Below are positions 28,781-62,258 of a stretch of DNA of 64,000 bases, piece after piece. This DNA comes from Shinella zoogloeoides (GTDB taxonomy: Bacteria; Pseudomonadota; Alphaproteobacteria; Rhizobiales; Rhizobiaceae). A program made the position numbers and the translations under genes. Under the pieces are notes generated by a model. It was not told the origin of the DNA. It made no database searches and was given only the letters and a program-made list of their open reading frames with translations. The number at the start of each line of letters is the position of its first letter. Position 1 is the stretch's first letter. The DNA lies in contig NZ_CP093531.1 in the NCBI RefSeq assembly GCF_022682305.1, positions 66,188-130,187 on the forward strand, given 5' to 3'.

Positions 28781-28903
28781 AAACAGAAAACCCGGCGCGG
28801 GAGGAGGTGCACCGGGTTTTCCAAAAATTGACCGTTGGCTCGGAAGAGGAAAGCCTTCGGTCGACCGAAACCGATTGGGAGGAGGAGTATCGGTTTCGAC
28901 AGA
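28781..28903 (-). ncRNA. Alpha-r14-like small RNA with anti-Shine-Dalgarno loops
   Basis: On the minus strand two hairpins each expose CCTCCTCCC in the loop: stem CGAAACCGAT with ATCGGTTTCG (28866-28875 and 28889-28898), and stem GAAAACCCGG with CCGGGTTTTC (28786-28795 and 28812-28821). The second is followed by TGTTTCT and can act as a Rho-independent terminator. This two-hairpin anti-SD plan is what I know of the alpha-r14 (NfeR1/Smr14C) sRNA family of Rhizobiales, which represses mRNAs by pairing with ribosome-binding sites. No promoter was identified with confidence, so the 5' end is approximate. Confidence 0.7.
28786..28821. terminator. Bidirectional-looking terminator hairpin
   Basis: A perfect 10-bp stem (GAAAACCCGG with CCGGGTTTTC) with a 16-nt loop. 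It ends the sRNA on the minus strand and lies 18 bp after the small gene on the plus strand. Confidence 0.65.
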
Positions 28904-29430
28904 GAGAAGTTAATGCTGCCATGCGCCCAAGACTGCTCTCGCTGTCTATATGCTCCGTGATTGTAGCGGAAATTCAGCCGGCCGACCTTGCACGAATATG
29001 GCATCCGGAACGACGCCCTGCCGGAGCCAATAGGCAATGAAGGCCGGCTTGTGGCTTGTCGATCACCCGATGCGAGGCTTTGGTCGGGAGTAGGCTGCCA
29101 GCAGCGCTTCCATGCTGAACTTCAGAAGCCCGACGACCGCCACATGAAATCTCAGCAGGCCCGTTGAAGGAAAGTCTTCCCTTGATGCCGTCAAGGCTGA
29201 AGCGCGGGGCAATCGCCCGCGCGTTAAACCTCAGCTATTGCCAGGCGCTTGATCAGATCGCGCAACGCCGCGGATATGCGCAACCTCCGCCTTGGTGGTG
29301 ATGAATGATGGCCAGAGCTCTCGACGGGGATTTGCGGTTACGCGTCTTGAAGGCTGCGGATGATGGGATACCCCCTGCATCTCCTTTTCGCATTCCCCGC
29401 TTTGAAATTCCTGCCGGGCAAGGTTTACCG
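28904..29430. other. Region downstream of repC without a supported gene
   Basis: No open frame here has family support or a credible start in good context. The left edge should contain the sRNA promoter (minus strand). Confidence 0.4.
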
Positions 29431-30660
29431 CTACGCCAATTTGCGCGCCTCCCCTGCATTTGCCCGCATCAATGCCATCAACATCGGACCGAGGCCGAAT
29501 TCGTCCCGGGCTGCACGGCGCGTCAAATCCCGCAGATACCCGCCAGCCGACTTGATATGCCCTGCCCGCTCCAGAATGCAGGCGATCGCGATCGCCGCAT
29601 TTTCCGGCCCCATCACCTCGCAAGCCTCCTGATAGGCCGAGGGACTAACACCGAGCATCGATCGAACTACGACGGCCGCGCCCATCAGATCGCGCCAGTG
29701 CGAAATCGCCCCGCCCGGCCCAAAATCGGCGATTTGCGGGCAGGCGCGCAGAACCATGCCGAGGGGGAAGGATTTTTTTCGGTCCGTAACGGGCTCCGGC
29801 TTCGTCGGTTGCGGTTCTTGCGCCAGCCTTTCGCCCTGCTCTTTTTCAGAGCGAGGTTCAAGTTCATGGATGGATTCGGGTTTTGAATTCTGTATGTGGC
29901 AACCATTTTGAACATCATTGCCATCTGTTTTTTGTGAATTTATTTGCATTTCCAGGATGTTGACGATCTCATCCCGCAGCATCGTCATTTCCTCGAGCAC
30001 AGCCTCCGTTTCAACCCGGTTCGGAGCGCGGGGAAGGCGAGCGCGAAGGGCGACATACATCGCTTCAATGGCTTCCCAGTCCCCATCAGCCCCCTCATCG
30101 ATCGCCGCTGTGATCAGCTTGCGGACGTCACGGCGACAAATCGAGAGGGCTTCCTTAGCGCGCTTGAACACACGCCGCTCCTCGGCAACCTGCTGCGCCA
30201 ACTGAGCGAACTCTTCTACACGCGCCAAAAGTGGCGCCAGGCTGAAGCCAAACGCTTTCTCGATCTCGCCGGACTTGGTTCTGTGTGCGTAGCGTTTCCC
30301 GTTCGGGCTGTCATGGCGATGGATCAGGCCGGCATCCACAAGCGCCGCCAAATGACGACGAAGCGTCGTGCCGGCGATCCCATGCGCGCGGACTGACAGC
30401 TGAGCATTTGAAGGGAAAACCACGAGGCTCTGCCCTTCCGCCAATTCGATATGGGGGTAGAACGTGAGAAGCGCATCCAGGACCGTGATAGCGCGGTCCC
30501 CAAGGCCGAGCACACTCTTGGCTTCGCTGACGTCCCGGAAGATTTTCCATTTATCGGCGGTCTTGCCGCTCTTGATTTCGGCCGCCTTCACCTGCCCCTT
30601 CACAAGGGCAAGCGACATCGGCCGCCGCCCGAAGGGCGTCGTCACATTTCCGATCTGCAT
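29431..30660 (-). CDS. repC: RepC replication initiator of the repABC replicon
   Basis: The product is 409 residues and starts MQIGNVTTPFGRRPMSLALV, the standard RepC N-terminus. RepC binds the origin, which in repABC plasmids lies inside repC, and starts replication. GIAGTTLRRHLAALVDAGLI is the winged-helix recognition region (about residue 80). The C-terminal domain (PSAYQEACEVMGPENAAIAI, with ARDEFGLGPMLMALMRANAG near the end) is also typical. It is separated from repB by 214 bp that contain an antisense RNA locus and a parS-like site. The length and both domains are complete. Confidence 0.95.
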   Translation of the reverse strand: MQIGNVTTPFGRRPMSLALVKGQVKAAEIKSGKTADKWKIFRDVSEAKSVLGLGDRAITVLDALLTFYPHIELAEGQSLVVFPSNAQLSVRAHGIAGTTLRRHLAALVDAGLIHRHDSPNGKRYAHRTKSGEIEKAFGFSLAPLLARVEEFAQLAQQVAEERRVFKRAKEALSICRRDVRKLITAAIDEGADGDWEAIEAMYVALRARLPRAPNRVETEAVLEEMTMLRDEIVNILEMQINSQKTDGNDVQNGCHIQNSKPESIHELEPRSEKEQGERLAQEPQPTKPEPVTDRKKSFPLGMVLRACPQIADFGPGGAISHWRDLMGAAVVVRSMLGVSPSAYQEACEVMGPENAAIAIACILERAGHIKSAGGYLRDLTRRAARDEFGLGPMLMALMRANAGEARKLA

Positions 30661-30754
30661 TTTCCTTCACCTTTCAGAAGGCAAAAGAAATCCGCTCACC
30701 AAAACGGTGCCAAAAACTCTTGACTGCGATTCGTGAAAATGCGATTCTTTGTTT

Positions 30755-30812
30755 GCTACAACATAAGAAGGGGCTTCCACGACGGCGACGTTTTGGGGGC
30801 CTTTTTCTTTTG
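30755..30812 (+). ncRNA. Antisense counter-transcribed RNA in the repB-repC gap
   Basis: repABC operons encode a ctRNA antisense to the repC leader that controls copy number and incompatibility. On the plus strand TTGACT at 30720-30725 and GATTCT at 30743-30748 with 17-bp spacing form a promoter, and GGGGGCCTTTTTCTTTT (about 30795-30811) ends the transcript. The expected RNA is about 57 nt, the usual size. The exact 5' end is inferred. Confidence 0.7.
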
Positions 30813-30836
30813 TAGGTTACACTCCAGCTTGCAAGA

Positions 30837-33221: not shown

Positions 33222-33860
33222 CTCCACTCAATCAAAGGGGTCAAAGCGGGTGGAAAACGAATCTGGAGAGAATCGGTCCTCGAACTAGGAACTGTAAAAC
33301 CTAACTTACCGCCGGCCGAACACCCAAAGCAGACACGTCTGCGGGTTTCAATTCTGTACGCGTGGCTCCCGATTCCCGTCGGCCTTACGCGACAACACAC
33401 AAGCTCAATCTGTAACACCGGCGCAATCGCAAACGTCTGGTATATGTCACAAAGTCCTGATCTTTCCGGCCGCCTCACCGCCTGGAGCCATCCACACCTC
33501 CAAGCCTCAGGGAGAAGAGCGCGAGACAAAAAAGGGGCCGTCGGAAACCCGCGGCCCATCAAGTGTGGAGATCTGTAACCTCCAGAGGGGAACAGCTGCG
33601 GCGGCGGGTACTGGGAGGATAAACCGCAATGAGCATTAGCTGCCTGTAGGATGCTCTCATTTTCATCGGATGGCGAGCATTTCTTGTGCAATGTAGTAAC
33701 TATGCGGTTGCCACAGTGCTCCACGATGACTCTATTGCGGGGTGCGGCCTTCGTGACGGGGCCGATATCCACGGCTCGCGAACAGGATGTATCACTGAAA
33801 TGAATCGATCGGACCGGACCGATTCATATCTCTCGTTGGACGAGCGCCCGGGGATTGGCG
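33222..33860. other. Upstream region of the repABC operon, no gene
   Basis: About 640 bp with no supportable gene. Near its end ATGAATCG (33800-33807) and CGATTCAT (33820-33827) form an inverted repeat with CGGACCGGACC between the arms, about 34 bp before the WGR gene, and may be an operator for it. Confidence 0.4.
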
Positions 33861-41574: not shown

Positions 41575-42591
41575 TCATCGTTGCTGGCGGCGGGTGGGCA
41601 GCGCGCCGTTGTTGGCGCGGACCATTTCCGCCAGTTCCTCGTCCGTGACGGGGCGGGCACCTTCAACACCGTCGAGGGCACGAAGAACATCGTCGCCGAG
41701 GAAGCGGTGCCATTCGTCCCAATCCCGCAGAAACCTGCCAACGGATGCTTCCTCGTATCCCCGCCACTGGTTTTCCGCCGCATGTCGAGACATAAGATCG
41801 ACGACCGCCTCCGATGGCCGGGCATCCCTCGGCCCACGGAATTGCCGCACCACATCGCCCGCGAGTTCCAGGGTCGCGATCGGCAGGCCGTCGGGGCCGC
41901 GCACCGAGTAGTACCTGAAGCGTGAATCCCGGAGCCGGATGTCATAGCCGCCGTGGCTCAGACAGTGGCGCATGCGGGCGCCTTCGATGCGAAGCGCGAG
42001 TGGCGTCAGGAGCTGGACAAGCATATGGCCGGCACCGAGGTCGGCGATTTCGGATTCGTCATCGGGACCCGGCTCGGGAATGGCGACGGCCGGCAGATTG
42101 CCGTCGTGGAGCCTGTCTTCCGGCCGGAACCGGAAGCCCTTGTTCGCTTCACGAACGAGCTGCTCCAGGCTCCCGCACTTCGCCAGCTTTTTCGGCTCGC
42201 CGTGAGGATCGTGAATGTGAAGCCACGGCGCATTGGTCGCCACCGCATAGATCAGCCAGTCGGCGACGTACCAGATATCCGGCGCGTTCCAGCGGAAATA
42301 GAGCGCCGCCCGCCGCTCCCACTTGCGTCGGAGAATCTCGTCCTCTAAGCCGCCGCGGATGGGCCATCCGTCGCTCTGGTGCCAGCGCGGGTCATCGCTG
42401 CGATCGGTGGGATCGATCACGATCTCGGGATCGATACGGTCCTGCGCGATCCAGAATTTCATGTAAACGCGGCCGAGGCTGGGGGCGATCAGGTTGTCGA
42501 TCAGCATGTGCTGGCGGTTGGGAATGTCCAGTTCGCGGCAGAAGGCTTCCACCGCCGGCCGCCATTCAGGATGTTTGCGAGGCGACTTCAT
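41575..42591 (-). CDS. PcfJ-like protein
   Basis: The product is about 338 residues from ATG at 42591. The PcfJ region is near residues 215-285: MRHCLSHGGYDIRLRDSRFR, YYSVRGPDGLPIATLEL and VVRQFRGPRDARPSEAVVDL, the Cys-containing MRHC..YA.. block followed by beta strands. PcfJ proteins were named from conjugative plasmids of Gram-positive bacteria and are found on many plasmids and phages; their role is unknown. Its ATG overlaps the stop of the AbiEii gene (ATGA), so the pair is one unit. Confidence 0.7.
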   Translation of the reverse strand: MKSPRKHPEWRPAVEAFCRELDIPNRQHMLIDNLIAPSLGRVYMKFWIAQDRIDPEIVIDPTDRSDDPRWHQSDGWPIRGGLEDEILRRKWERRAALYFRWNAPDIWYVADWLIYAVATNAPWLHIHDPHGEPKKLAKCGSLEQLVREANKGFRFRPEDRLHDGNLPAVAIPEPGPDDESEIADLGAGHMLVQLLTPLALRIEGARMRHCLSHGGYDIRLRDSRFRYYSVRGPDGLPIATLELAGDVVRQFRGPRDARPSEAVVDLMSRHAAENQWRGYEEASVGRFLRDWDEWHRFLGDDVLRALDGVEGARPVTDEELAEMVRANNGALPTRRQQR

Positions 42592-43487
42592 GCGAACATC
42601 CTCGCTACGCTTGAACCCGGGCGCTGGACCACGAACGGCTTGTGTCTGAGGCCGAGTTCGGCCTTCACCTCGGACCAGAGGTAGGCTGCGTCGATCCACG
42701 CCGAGAAGATGGAAAGCGTGGTCTTTCCCGCCGCCCGGTGCCTTTCCCACGATGGTTCAAGGCGTTGGATCGCGGGCCAATCGAGCGTCGCCGGCAGATC
42801 GCGGACATCGATGCCCCGATAGCGGCAGACGCCGATCATCTCTCGGGCGACGTCCCGGCAATCCACGTCCGCCCAGAGACGCTCGTCGATAACATCCGCG
42901 AGGTGCCGGATACGGAAATCCGATTCCGGCTGAAACATCACCGCGAGCAGCGTCTCGGCGGCGACGACTTCCAGCGGCTGGCAGGCGATGGCGAGCGGCG
43001 GGATGCCCGAGACCAGCGACGGAATTTCGGAAAGCTCGATCGCCTCGATGACAGCGCCGGCCCCGCGCCGCGGGTCCATATTGAGGCTGGCGCTGGCGGC
43101 GACACCGCCGACCTTGCCCTCAATGATCCATCGCTCCACGGAGTTGCCGCATCCAGTGTCGGCCTGCGGCACAGGGGCGGTGAAATCCAGCCGCATACCT
43201 TCGCGCTCGAGGAGCCGGGCAATAGTCTCCATGCCGCGCACGATGTCGTCGCACCGGTAGCGGCGGGATATCGCGATATCGGCATCGCGCGTTTCACGAA
43301 CGGTTTGGTCGAACAGCAGTCCGCCTGTCAGCAGGACCGGGGCCGGTCCCATTCCCTGCGCCCAGTACCTCAGAATGCCCTCGACGAGCGTCCTCCCGGC
43401 CAGCTTTTCCAGATCGAGGCCATGTGTTGTCGCGGCGATCTTGAGGCGCGCATCCAGGCTCTGCGCAATTTCCGATAGCTTCTCCAT
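42588..43487 (-). CDS. AbiEii-type nucleotidyltransferase toxin
   Basis: The product is about 299 residues. VLLTGGLLFDQTVRETRDAD (about residue 51) is the nucleotidyltransferase signature GG...[RT]-[DT]-x-D of AbiEii/MenT toxins. The later PPLAIACQPLEVVAAETLLA and FRIRHLADVIDERL blocks also match. MenT-type members add pyrimidines to tRNA ends and stop translation. The normal partner, an AbiEi antitoxin upstream, is absent; instead a PcfJ-like gene follows with an ATGA overlap. GGAG six bases before ATG at 43487 fixes the start. Confidence 0.75.
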   Translation of the reverse strand: MEKLSEIAQSLDARLKIAATTHGLDLEKLAGRTLVEGILRYWAQGMGPAPVLLTGGLLFDQTVRETRDADIAISRRYRCDDIVRGMETIARLLEREGMRLDFTAPVPQADTGCGNSVERWIIEGKVGGVAASASLNMDPRRGAGAVIEAIELSEIPSLVSGIPPLAIACQPLEVVAAETLLAVMFQPESDFRIRHLADVIDERLWADVDCRDVAREMIGVCRYRGIDVRDLPATLDWPAIQRLEPSWERHRAAGKTTLSIFSAWIDAAYLWSEVKAELGLRHKPFVVQRPGSSVARMFA

Positions 43488-43635
43488 TGTCGATCTCCTC
43501 AAATTTATCGGCTGCGGAGATCATCCGACGTCGGCTTGCAAGGAACGACGTCACTACGTGCTTTTACGAAAGCCGGATTCAGAACCATGAAGTAACGGGG
43601 GGAGGTCGGAGAAAAAGCACGGTTCGAAAACAAGG

Positions 43636-57735: not shown

Positions 57736-58323
57736 TCAGCCAAGGCGGACCGGTTCGCGTGCCGGCTCCCGTTTGAAGTCCAGGCCGTCATAGATGTCGC
57801 TGAGCGCCAGCGTCGCTCCGAGTTCAGGGAAATCGATGACGTCGCCGAATCTCTCGTACAGGGTCTCACACCAGCCTTCGCCCTCGCGGGCATGCAAAAG
57901 GGCGCATGCGTCGTTCGTGTCGACCAGCAGGACGTATCTGATCCCGGGCTTCGACTTGTACTCAAAAACCTTTCGGTGGGAATCGAAGTCACGCGTCGCT
58001 GGAGAGACGACCTCAACCATTAGCACGGGTTCCGTCGCCAGCATTGCCTGGTCTTCCATCCTGCCGCAATCGACGACGATTGCCGGATATCTCACCGTAC
58101 CGAAGATGGTCGAAACACCTGAATTTGCGGCTGTCGGACGGCATCCTTTTCCTCGCAGCTGGTTGTGAAGTGCAGCCAGGGTATTGGCCACGATAGCCTG
58201 GTGCCGCTGATTGCTACCGGCCACCATGACGGCTTCGCCATTGACCAGCTCCCACTTCTCATCCCGTGTCTGGATAAATTCCAGGAAGGCATCCTCGGAC
58301 ATTTCGGATGTTGCCGGCTGCAT
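57736..58323 (-). CDS. Uma2-family PD-(D/E)XK nuclease-fold protein
   Basis: The product is about 195 residues from ATG at 58323 (MQPATSEMSEDAFLEFIQTR). The Uma2 core is clear: ELVNGEAVMVAGSNQRHQAI, IVVDCGRMEDQAMLATEPVL, MVEVVSPATRDFDSHRKVFE and YKSKPGIRYVLLVDTNDACA. Asp in VVDCG, Glu in VEVVSP and Lys in EYKS fit the nuclease-fold site. Uma2 proteins are very common in cyanobacteria and some proteobacteria and have no settled role. It stands alone, convergent with the zinc-ribbon operon. Confidence 0.85.
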   Translation of the reverse strand: MQPATSEMSEDAFLEFIQTRDEKWELVNGEAVMVAGSNQRHQAIVANTLAALHNQLRGKGCRPTAANSGVSTIFGTVRYPAIVVDCGRMEDQAMLATEPVLMVEVVSPATRDFDSHRKVFEYKSKPGIRYVLLVDTNDACALLHAREGEGWCETLYERFGDVIDFPELGATLALSDIYDGLDFKREPAREPVRLG

Positions 58324-58482
58324 CGTGAAAACCTCCCTGACCATTTGCGTGATCGTAATGAAGTAGTTTGTAAGCCTCAAGTAAATGCGCCTCAAAAACC
58401 TCGTTTGAAAAAATAACAAGTTTTAATATACAAATTGAAAATTGCAGCCGAAAATAAAATAAAGAAAATTTCGATACTACTG
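58324..58482. other. AT-rich spacer upstream of the RNA locus
   Basis: Strongly AT-rich (for example 58405-58475). It should contain the promoter of the Uma2 gene on the minus strand. No gene is seen. Confidence 0.4.
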
Positions 58483-58511
58483 TTGACGCGAGATGTATAG
58501 AGAATTACATT
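58483..58511 (+). promoter_or_regulatory. Promoter of the candidate structured RNA
   Basis: TTGACG (58483-58488), a 17-bp spacer and TACATT (58506-58511). No gene with family support follows for more than 650 bp, so the transcript is mainly non-coding. Confidence 0.5.
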
Positions 58512-58517
58512 GGAATG

Positions 58518-58886
58518 GTCGGAACGAAAGATGTGGATATGACCTCCGTCTATATCTGATAATACCGATCCGGTTAGGTTGCCCCTTGAGGGCTTGGAAG
58601 AACCGTAACGGCAAGAAATTGCCTTTGCATGTTATGTTTCCCTTCGGGGGATCAGGAAATGACCGGCCGAAAGGCTTGACGTTTCCAGTTATGTTGCCCC
58701 TTGAGGGCTTGCCCTGCAGACGCAGGGATGTCCTCCCTTCCCGGGAGGGTTTGACACAGCCCCGCCTCGCTAGCTTCAGCGGAGCAGGGGTCAAACACTT
58801 CACCGCCATGCAGGCGGCTCTGAACAGACAGCTCCCGTTCGCGTGGAGTCACAAGAGGGTGGCAGCGATGCCACCCTTTTCTTTGG
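58518..58886 (+). ncRNA. Candidate structured RNA with tandem hairpin repeats and terminator
   Basis: Downstream of a good promoter come three units about 57-58 nt apart, each starting GTTAGGTT or GTTATGTT (58573, 58631, 58688) followed by a hairpin: GCCC-CTTGA-GGGC (58581-58593 and 58696-58708) or CCC-TTCG-GGG (58640-58649). Each is followed by a second hairpin: GGCAA-GAAA-TTGCC (58610), GCC-GAAA-GGC (58667), CCCTG-CAGACG-CAGGG (58711). Then come CCTCCC-TTCC-GGGAGG, a long GTTTGAC...GTCAAAC stem (58748-58796), CCGCC-ATGCA-GGCGG, and the terminator GGGTGGCA-GCGA-TGCCACCC-TTTTCTTT. The long open frame across it has no protein-like character. An interspersed palindromic element is the alternative. 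Confidence 0.5.
58857..58884 (+). terminator. Rho-independent terminator of the RNA locus
   Basis: GGGTGGCA and TGCCACCC form an 8-bp GC-rich stem around GCGA, followed by TTTTCTTT. Confidence 0.75.
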
Positions 58887-58946
58887 ATGCCGACATAACT
58901 GGCTGGCAGGGGCAAAGCTACAGCCCGGCGAAAGCCCCGGGCATCC
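58885..58946 (+). other. Further nested hairpin after the terminator
   Basis: GGATGCC (58885-58891) pairs with GGCATCC (58940-58946), and inside it GGGGC (58909-58913) pairs with GCCCC (58934-58938). The internal GCAAAGCTACAG and GGCGAAAGCC sequences look riboswitch-like, but I cannot assign a class. From here to 59171 no other feature is seen. Confidence 0.35.
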
Positions 58947-59171
58947 GGGTGCTTCATAGATATTCTCCGCACGCCACCAGCGTAGCATCGCCACGCGCCA
59001 TTGTCGTTACTTTCACGGAGGCCAACATATATCGGCGCTCGTTTCAGGTAACAGACGCGCGAGATTTGGTTTTACGTTCCGTAAATGTGATTTTCTTCAT
59101 ATTTCCCCTTGAACTATATTTGGCGACAGGGCAGAATTAGTAAACACAAACAAATATTGGACACGAAAGCC

Positions 59172-61115: not shown

Positions 61116-61529
61116 TCAGAACTCCCACGGCGAAATGAGATCGAGGCCTGTCGTCTCGAAATCCTTGAGATTGCGGGTAGCCAGGCGGGCGCCGTTCACC
61201 CGGGCAATCGCCGCGATCATGCCATCGGGAGCCGACATGCCTCGTCCCTTGCGAGCAGCGTCACCCATGATCTCGCCATAGGCCAGCGCGGCTTCCTCGG
61301 TCAGCCCGAAAATGCGGTCCGCGAAACGATGGCGCCACGCGCGCAGTCCCTGTTCCAGCCGGTCGGCGCGCTGATCCGACCTGATCTTCTGAATCCCGAA
61401 GGCGATCTCCGCTATCGTTACCGTCGGCAGCGCCAGTTCCGCGTCAAACCGCGTCAGCCATGCGATGACCGCCTCCTTCGGCGCCTTTTTCAAGCTCTCG
61501 GAAACGACGTTGGTATCGAGGAAGATCAA
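61116..61529 (-). CDS. VapC/FitB-type PIN toxin
   Basis: The product is 137 residues. MIFLDTNVVSESLKKAPKEA has the first Asp at residue 5, PTVTIAEIAFGIQKIR the Glu at residue 41, and GMSAPDGMIAAIARVNGARL with LATRNLKDFE the remaining acidic residues. FitB/VapC toxins cut tRNA or rRNA. The start overlaps the antitoxin stop as ATGA (61526-61529). Confidence 0.9.
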   Translation of the reverse strand: MIFLDTNVVSESLKKAPKEAVIAWLTRFDAELALPTVTIAEIAFGIQKIRSDQRADRLEQGLRAWRHRFADRIFGLTEEAALAYGEIMGDAARKGRGMSAPDGMIAAIARVNGARLATRNLKDFETTGLDLISPWEF

Positions 61530-61774
61530 AGCTCGATGCCTCGATGCGGATGCCGGCCCTCACGAATGACGGCCTCCAGGTCGATATCGACCCCTTGCTG
61601 CGCACTCAAGCGGGAATAGAAACTCGAAGCCGGCTCACGTCCTGCTTCACGAACCTCATAGGCTTCAAGCGCGCGCTCGACCACTTCGGCAATCGAGCGG
61701 TTTTCCCGGCGGGCAAGCCTGTGCGCCAGATCGCGCGCCTTGGAGCTGCGGACAGAAAGTTGGGGGGCGGCCAT
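61526..61774 (-). CDS. VapB/FitA-type antitoxin
   Basis: The product is 82 residues from ATG at 61774, chosen because AAGGAG lies six bases upstream; ATG at 61780 has no spacing. PQLSVRSSKARDLAHRLARR followed by ENRSIAEVVERALEAYEVRE is a ribbon-helix-helix domain. The C-terminus (ASSFYSRLSAQQGVDIDLEA) would bind the PIN toxin. Confidence 0.88.
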   Translation of the reverse strand: MAAPQLSVRSSKARDLAHRLARRENRSIAEVVERALEAYEVREAGREPASSFYSRLSAQQGVDIDLEAVIREGRHPHRGIEL

Positions 61775-62258
61775 GCTCATCTCCTTCAGACATCAACATA
61801 GGCCCACAGTTGCCTGCCATCAAGATGGCATCTGCTGGTCAGCCACCTTCAGGAGGACGATTGAACAAACCTCTCCGGGTCGAAACAAGATCTGTTTTTT
61901 CCCCGGAAGCGCGAGATCGAGATAGGTGGCCCGGCTCGGCGAGGTGCCGCATGCCGGACGGCGCTCCACCCCACCGGCACGGCAACAGAATGACTGTACG
62001 GATTTTTTTGCACGCTCTTCTCGGCATCGGTTCAACATCGGCGGGTTGAGAGTGCAAAATAGAGAGGAGATGCTTCGGAGGTTTCGCGGAAGCCCTGCCG
62101 AAAGTGATCGGCAAACCATAGCGCCACGACGAAACGGCGCCGCATTGCAATCGGCCGGCTTGAGCACTCTATGCGCTCACCCCGAACATCAAGCAAACGC
62201 TAACAGTTACGTCTTATTCCCCTGCGGCGGGCCAGCAAAAGCCCACGGATTTTCTGCC
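61775..62258. other. Divergent intergenic region, no supported gene
   Basis: About 480 bp between the VapBC pair and the phosphatase. The open frame that extends the phosphatase upstream has no conserved sequence. GAGAGGAGATG occurs near 62062 but opens no real gene. Confidence 0.4.

Follow-up and report, generated by a model that had tools for sequence, protein, structure and literature searches.

What might be encoded by a hairpin-rich region of a Shinella-type plasmid, where three open reading frames (58493-59140 on the forward strand, 58477-58809 and 58652-58972 on the reverse strand) have no Pfam match at E 0.1? The region belongs to the window, that is, the whole 64-kb stretch of DNA analysed, which forms the final part of the 130,187-base contig C4 of a 5.14-Mb genome. 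An open frame runs from the end of the window into the start of C4, and the plasmid is therefore probably circular. Because the three frames have no match, a protein-coding reading was rejected, in agreement with a preliminary description of the locus, which had seen no believable protein there. The conserved element, with its repeated hairpins, extends over 58483-58886 (Table 1) and is predicted to be a non-coding RNA gene. Its class had not been recognised in the preliminary description. At gathering score, Rfam 15 gives four matches in the window, none of which overlaps the element. Apart from a CRISPR family discussed below, the sub-threshold matches (HCV_5BSL1 at the terminator, ctRNA_p42d, P36 and others) were taken as chance. 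No description of this RNA was found in the literature, as judged by titles and abstract openings.

Table 1. Parts of the element, with positions in the window.
Feature	Position	Strand	Basis
Promoter-like site TTGACG-N17-TACATT (TTGACG 58483-58488, TACATT 58506-58511)	58483-58511	+	sequence scan; 17-nt spacing recurs among members
5′ domain: outer stem P1 (58517-58522 with 58565-58570) around second stem (58529-58538 with 58548-58557)	58517-58570	+	fold
Unit 1, 58 nt, lead GTTAGGTT; hairpins GCCC-CTTGA-GGGC (58581-58593), then GAAA-loop hairpin (58610-58623)	58573-58630	+	sequence, direct repeat, R2 model match
Unit 2, 57 nt, lead GTTATGTT; TTCG-loop hairpin (58636-58652), then GGCC-GAAA-GGCT (58665-58676)	58631-58687	+	sequence, R1 and R2 model matches, covariation
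Unit 3 start, lead GTTATGTT, hairpin GCCC-CTTGA-GGGC (58696-58708)	58688-58711	+	direct repeat
Hairpins CCCTGC-AGAC-GCAGGG (58712-58727) and TCCTCCC-ttccc-GGGAGGG (58731-58749)	58712-58749	+	sequence
Long closing stem TTTGAC...GTCAAA	58750-58795	+	sequence, fold
Module H-b CTTCACCGCC-ATGCA-GGCGGCTCTGAAC, type I-F CRISPR repeat look-alike	58798-58825	+	Rfam below gathering score, identity count
Terminator-like hairpin AAGAGGGTGGCA-gcga-TGCCACCCTTTT (stem 58853-58880), then TTTTCTTT; T-rich tail	58853-58886	+	inverted repeat, fold

Most of the parts previously announced are present. The promoter-like site was found, with 9 of 12 letters matching; alone it is not significant (two such sites in a 901-base stretch, versus 0.8 expected from shuffles). 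In 8 of the 15 member rows, the first stem is preceded by TTGAC, a 17-base spacer and a second hexamer that is only loosely defined. Among the seven other rows, ownB2 is truncated and the excerpts of G388 and G374 are cut off within the first hexamer. The TTCG-loop hairpin, the two GAAA-loop hairpins and the long closing stem all occur in the sequence. Three units of 57-58 nt had been proposed: two such units and the start of a third are indeed observed, with one lead differing from the others by a single base. GTTAkGTT is the lead common to all three starts, their hairpins have a CCC-loop-GGG form, and the start of unit 3 is 93% identical to unit 1 as a 28-nt direct repeat. However, the number three is not a defining trait of the family, as 8 of the members examined have two unit hairpins, and G224 and G336 have four. 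At the 3′ end, a strict terminator scan of the element found none, so that the "strong terminator" of the preliminary description rests on a hairpin and an interrupted T tract. A similar terminator-like hairpin is present in the related stretches L009, L003 and L081, and hairpins like CCCTGC/GCAGGG and TCCTCCC/GGGAGGG recur in several members, as found by a simple hairpin search.

Folding and covariation both argue for a structured RNA. The element folds at -154.2 kcal/mol (z -3.99), a value equalled by none of 100 shuffles. Twelve of the 15 member rows were folded (ownB2, G336 and G385 left out), and ten of these beat all of their 60 shuffles, G374 being matched by one of 60 and G224 by three. 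In a 10-row alignment of two units, the unit hairpins covary, with 94.1% of 119 cells paired and 5 of 12 pairs changed on both sides. On each of the five measures the alignment surpasses all 500 shuffles; in slid controls, pairing is 63% or less. The rows of this alignment are not independent, since they include two overlapping stretches of the window and three paralogues of one type. In four relatives, the first stem is paired in 90.6% of cells, with pairing kept through changed sequence; its covariation score is reached by 0 of 500 shuffles, while two of its five measures are not exceptional (pairs changed on both sides, reached by 68 of 500, and another reached by 439 of 500). Covariation is weak in the H-b module: its stem is nearly invariant, and in the proposed outer stem only 59.5% of cells are paired. 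The existence of the RNA family and of its structure is well supported. Its novelty is supported by the lack of an Rfam family, by homologues with the same layout and by the covariation of the unit hairpins.

These homologues were found by BLASTN and by covariance models. With the element as query, BLASTN gave matches on S. zoogloeoides and S. sumterensis plasmids. In its own genome (5.1 Mb), the matches better than E 1 are the element itself and two weaker paralogues on the same plasmid, B1 (about C4:1486-1900) and the inverted, 5′-truncated B2 (about C4:3190-3480). In S. sumterensis, a B-type copy matches B1 with 82% identity (query coverage 98%); between the two plasmids the B-type stretch is 79% identical over 562 nt and the adjoining 3.1-kb gene block 72%. 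The A-type copy of S. sumterensis is interrupted by an IS5-family transposase gene (end of L010, start of L083), and the 3′ part of this RNA, with H-b, begins at the first bases of record L083.

The covariance models extended the family across Rhizobiaceae and to one other family of the order. The core model R1 found G288 (two copies), G388, G166 and G374, and the two-unit model R2 found G224, G336, G385 and, outside Rhizobiaceae, G726; a scan with the H-b pattern added Rhizobium sp. Leaf262 and a Hoeflea MAG. R1 at E 0.1 had matches in 30 of 394 genomes (6 accepted, G417 rejected as a groEL terminator region, 23 left out at that stage, three of which, G385, G179 and G233, were examined later). 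R2 had matches in 47 of 394 genomes at E 0.05 (9 accepted, 4 rejected, 34 left out) and, in a further search, in 11 of 387 at E 0.01 (2 accepted, 2 rejected, 7 left out). As many weaker matches were left out, the member count is a lower bound. The sequences of all accepted members were examined except that of the second G288 copy. Six candidates (G329, G179, G233, G294, G499 and G533) were dropped because, by eye, they were repeats, coding or terminators. The two G288 copies have identical model scores and lie on two contigs (L078 and L079, 5001-5112 in each) of an assembly with a listed contamination of 9; they may represent a duplicated element or assembly redundancy.

Member size varies from about 140 nt with two unit hairpins (G726) to more than 700 nt (G336), where the simple search gives over a dozen hairpins. 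The G336 RNA (L143, 9396-10056, reverse strand) looks like a string of modules, with short hairpins CCCTGC/GCAGGG, CCTCCC/GGGAGG and CCGCC/GGCGG. A phage origin was considered and rejected: with 58600-58890 as query, two phage records align along 34 nt of a tail fibre gene (E 1), which was taken as chance, and no viral contig matched any of four patterns.

The neighbourhood of the RNA frequently includes transfer genes, a context that the preliminary description does not mention. A MobV-like relaxase or a DotA/TraY gene is found within 9 kb of the RNA in 9 of 13 genomes (6 of 13 for each), the stretches examined being sometimes shorter than 9 kb on one side. All six DotA/TraY proteins are above the NCBIfam cut-off; the two relaxases submitted to this database give MobV matches that stay under the curated cut-off. 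G388, G166 and Hoeflea share one arrangement, in which a relaxase, a small protein, DotA/TraY and the RNA follow each other in this order on one strand. Such a context was not seen at the Shinella and G374 copies, and nothing in the part of the own plasmid that was compared (all but C4:60001-66187) matches the relatives' relaxase and DotA/TraY proteins. One methyltransferase-type family has relatives within about 9 kb in four genomes, and G288 has a type II methyltransferase together with a restriction enzyme. No neighbouring gene is common to all loci, which makes a trans-acting RNA more likely than a leader.

The H-b module, also absent from the preliminary description, has the general form UUCACCGCC-NNNNA-GGCGGCUCUGAA and resembles the type I-F CRISPR repeat. 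Against the Rfam family CRISPR-DR4 (RF01317), the window copy scores 24.1 bits, below the gathering score of 35, with E 0.012 in a 901-base search and 0.82 over the whole window, where no other CRISPR family appears among the sub-threshold matches. By itself this match proves nothing, because the unrelated viral family HCV_5BSL1 obtains a better E value in the same stretch. CRISPR-DR4 matches occur in five RNAs, all below gathering score; the best relative, G388, reaches 30.2 bits (E 4.4e-5), and the E values elsewhere are 1e-4, 2.6e-4 and 0.078 in Hoeflea, 0.085 and 0.12 in G336 and 0.41 in L009. When identity to I-F repeats is counted, the window module has 21 of 28 positions and G388 has 25 of 28, as against 16 of 28 for the next best of 200 hairpin 28-mers from the window; the B-type modules (ownB1 and sumB) have only 15 of 28 and are devoid of CTCTGAA. 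A BLAST search of 72,556 plasmids with the G388 module gave as best match, among the matches listed (30 of 40 records), an I-F array of 23 places (90.6% over 32 nt, E 2e-3), whose repeat gives the 25 of 28 and which adjoins cas1f-cas3f-csy1-3-cas6f. The Hoeflea module matches arrays of 38 and 26 places in cas6f-encoding records, at E 5 and 1; three other matches of that search (H37, H41 and H54) looked coding by eye. The Hoeflea RNA carries five CCGCC hairpins, three of them with the full CTCTGAA, a repetition that fits a decoy.

In total, 21 H-b-like copies (20 listed plus sumA) were collected, of which 15 were aligned and scored; ownB2, G288, Hoeflea 5 and the second copies of G388, G166 and Leaf262 were left out. 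A five-pair stem with a pentaloop ending in A is found in all 15, although the copies were listed with a regular expression fixing the stem and 8 of the 15 are tied to a pattern that fixes the A. Of the six further copies, one has a loop of 4 nt and the other five keep the final A. NYRYA describes the loop of 11 of the 15 aligned copies, of 13 of 21 once the left-out copies are counted, and of 4 of the 5 I-F repeats recovered. These repeats came from five of eight Cas6f-bearing records; Acetobacter persici gave another repeat and two Acetobacter records none. The exact H-b pattern occurs in eight stretches in 84,980 species genomes, four being rhizobial members of the RNA family and four looking coding by eye, and thus it is not a common rhizobial hairpin. 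In the flanks and members considered, the exact pattern with its handle met no CRISPR array in these genomes. Cas6f (PF09618) was found in 0 of 297 Rhizobiaceae genomes, and none of 19 plasmid records with a Cas6f relative (one query) is rhizobial. An anti-CRISPR role would therefore be without a known target. The reading of the unit hairpin as a CRISPR repeat was rejected for lack of support: the plasmid searches gave either no match or Shinella relatives and one 18-nt match.

How do these properties compare with known systems? CsrB and RsmZ are decoy RNAs in which many hairpins of one molecule act as a protein sponge. The element is also a many-hairpin RNA, but its GGA motifs are outside the loops and no Rfam family matches over it. 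ROOL and GOLLD are large structured RNAs of mobile elements, long and of unknown function. The element is likewise long, structured and mobile, but differs from them in its modular layout and, again, in the lack of an Rfam match. With the type I-F repeat, H-b shares a 5-bp GC stem, a 5-nt loop ending in A, and flanking UUCA and GAA. However, its 8-nt "handle" begins with CUCUGAA instead of CUUAGAAA, its score is below gathering, no cas genes were seen near the RNA, and no array of identical repeats with unique spacers is present. The nearest comparison is with RNA anti-CRISPRs (Racr), which are described as solitary repeat units borne by mobile elements, with a hairpin mimicking a CRISPR repeat, type I-F included (Camara-Wilpert et al., 2023, PMC10651486). 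Like the Racr described there, the element is carried by a mobile element, intergenic, preceded by its own promoter-like site and apart from cas genes (PMC10651486). SRUFinder is described as using a database of 17,823 repeats and asking for at least 90% identity, a full match to a known repeat at 90% coverage and a bit score of 41.1 (PMC10651486); on an identity count of that type, made against the five recovered I-F repeats only, H-b stays below this identity, at the values given above. Compared with the Racr described there, the family differs in its size (about 140 to more than 700 nt), its several kinds of hairpins with up to five CCGCC hairpins per RNA, the 21 of 28 identity in the window, and a matching Cas type that, judged by Cas6f only, is not seen in the 297 Rhizobiaceae genomes.

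Three observations lead us to favour a decoy mechanism, with a probability of about one in three: modules are repeated, no neighbouring gene is constant, and H-b looks like an I-F repeat. The element would be a stand-alone RNA gene of a new multi-hairpin family of mobile elements, and its transcript a multivalent decoy. Transcription would start from the TTGAC-N17 promoter and run to the 3′ hairpin, the RNA would act in trans, as the variable neighbourhood suggests, and the repeated hairpins would be repeated binding sites. H-b would compete for a repeat-binding protein, the most specific candidate being a Cas6f-like (Csy4) protein, as for RNA anti-CRISPRs, and the other module (about TCCCC-nnGA-GGGA-UUAGGA) would have a different ligand. 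Anti-CRISPR activity is the most specific form of this reading. It is also conceivable, albeit rather unlikely, that every hairpin imitates the RNA ligand of its own defence or processing enzyme, the I-F repeat being one such ligand, so that the element disarms several systems upon entering a new host. Conjugation would then have its first RNA decoy that is modular and has several targets. Whatever the mechanism, a compact conserved RNA family missing from Rfam is tied to plasmids and transfer genes in Rhizobiaceae and related bacteria. Should the resemblance to I-F repeats be functional, mimicry of CRISPR repeats by RNA would include, besides solitary units, long modular RNAs of mobile elements, and this in a bacterial family whose sampled genomes showed no Cas6f. 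If not, an unknown rhizobial RNA-binding protein may recognise nearly the same hairpin as Cas6f.

Nearly as probable as the decoy, and tentative as well, is a regulatory sRNA that would tune conjugation or copy number by base pairing or with a chaperone, without any link to CRISPR. The element's own promoter-like site and terminator-like hairpin, the transfer genes in 9 of 13 genomes and the fact that no Cas6f was found in the hosts agree with this idea. However, the most conserved letters lie in or next to hairpins and not in an unpaired seed, the transfer context was not seen at the Shinella and G374 copies, and the I-F-like module would be left unexplained. An improbable alternative is that the RNA is the partner of a nearby protein, especially PcfJ-like, in an RNP or a toxin-antitoxin-like pair. 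A PcfJ-like gene (PF14284) is indeed near the RNA in the Shinella plasmids and in G374: it lies between copies B1 and B2 on the own plasmid, adjoins the RNA in S. sumterensis, is degraded in S. zoogloeoides and is about 600 nt upstream in G374. Yet at the other 9 of the 13 genomes the compared stretch shows no PcfJ relative, for which reason PcfJ was rejected as an obligate partner at most loci, and a convincing RNA lies within about 4 kb in only three (own, G002 and G374) of 12 pcfJ-bearing genomes. A scan of genome contigs with pcfJ found nothing.

Two further explanations would make the element a remnant or a mere repeat. The period of an I-F array is 60 nt, to which the units of 58 and 57 nt are close, and H-b resembles the I-F repeat; a relic or domesticated array, with spacers turned into structures, may thus be thought of. 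This is very improbable, since the units carry the other module and not H-b, the stretch between the unit hairpins is conserved and covarying, unlike spacers, and the two long linkers of Hoeflea are alike by eye. Least probable is an interspersed palindrome of the RIME or MITE kind that has no role as an RNA; an interspersed palindromic element was also among the possibilities named in the preliminary description. The region is hairpin-rich, intergenic and plasmid-borne, but the three copies in the genome are confined to one plasmid, promoter spacing and 3′ hairpin are kept at low sequence identity, and the unit hairpins show compensatory changes.

Several other features of the own plasmid were noted. 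A gene for a putative endonuclease of the Uma2 family (57736-58419, reverse) lies immediately upstream of the RNA on the opposite strand; it also matches the PADLOC candidate-defence model PDC-S03. An AbiEii-like gene adjoins a PcfJ-like gene at two places of the plasmid, as inverted copies whose scores are identical, in the window at 41578-43520 (reverse) and at C4:29476-31418 (forward). As an AbiEii relative also accompanies pcfJ in L010, L064, L065, L067 and L069, the pair may be a functional unit. Rfam matches identify the known alphaproteobacterial sRNAs ar14 and ar15, together with the S-element and ctRNA of a repABC-type replicon, at 28783-28904 (reverse), 33529-33641 (reverse) and 30658-30813 of the window. 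Finally, a PIN-domain gene (61116-61780, reverse) is preceded by a PSK_trans_fac antitoxin-like gene, forming a VapBC-type pair.
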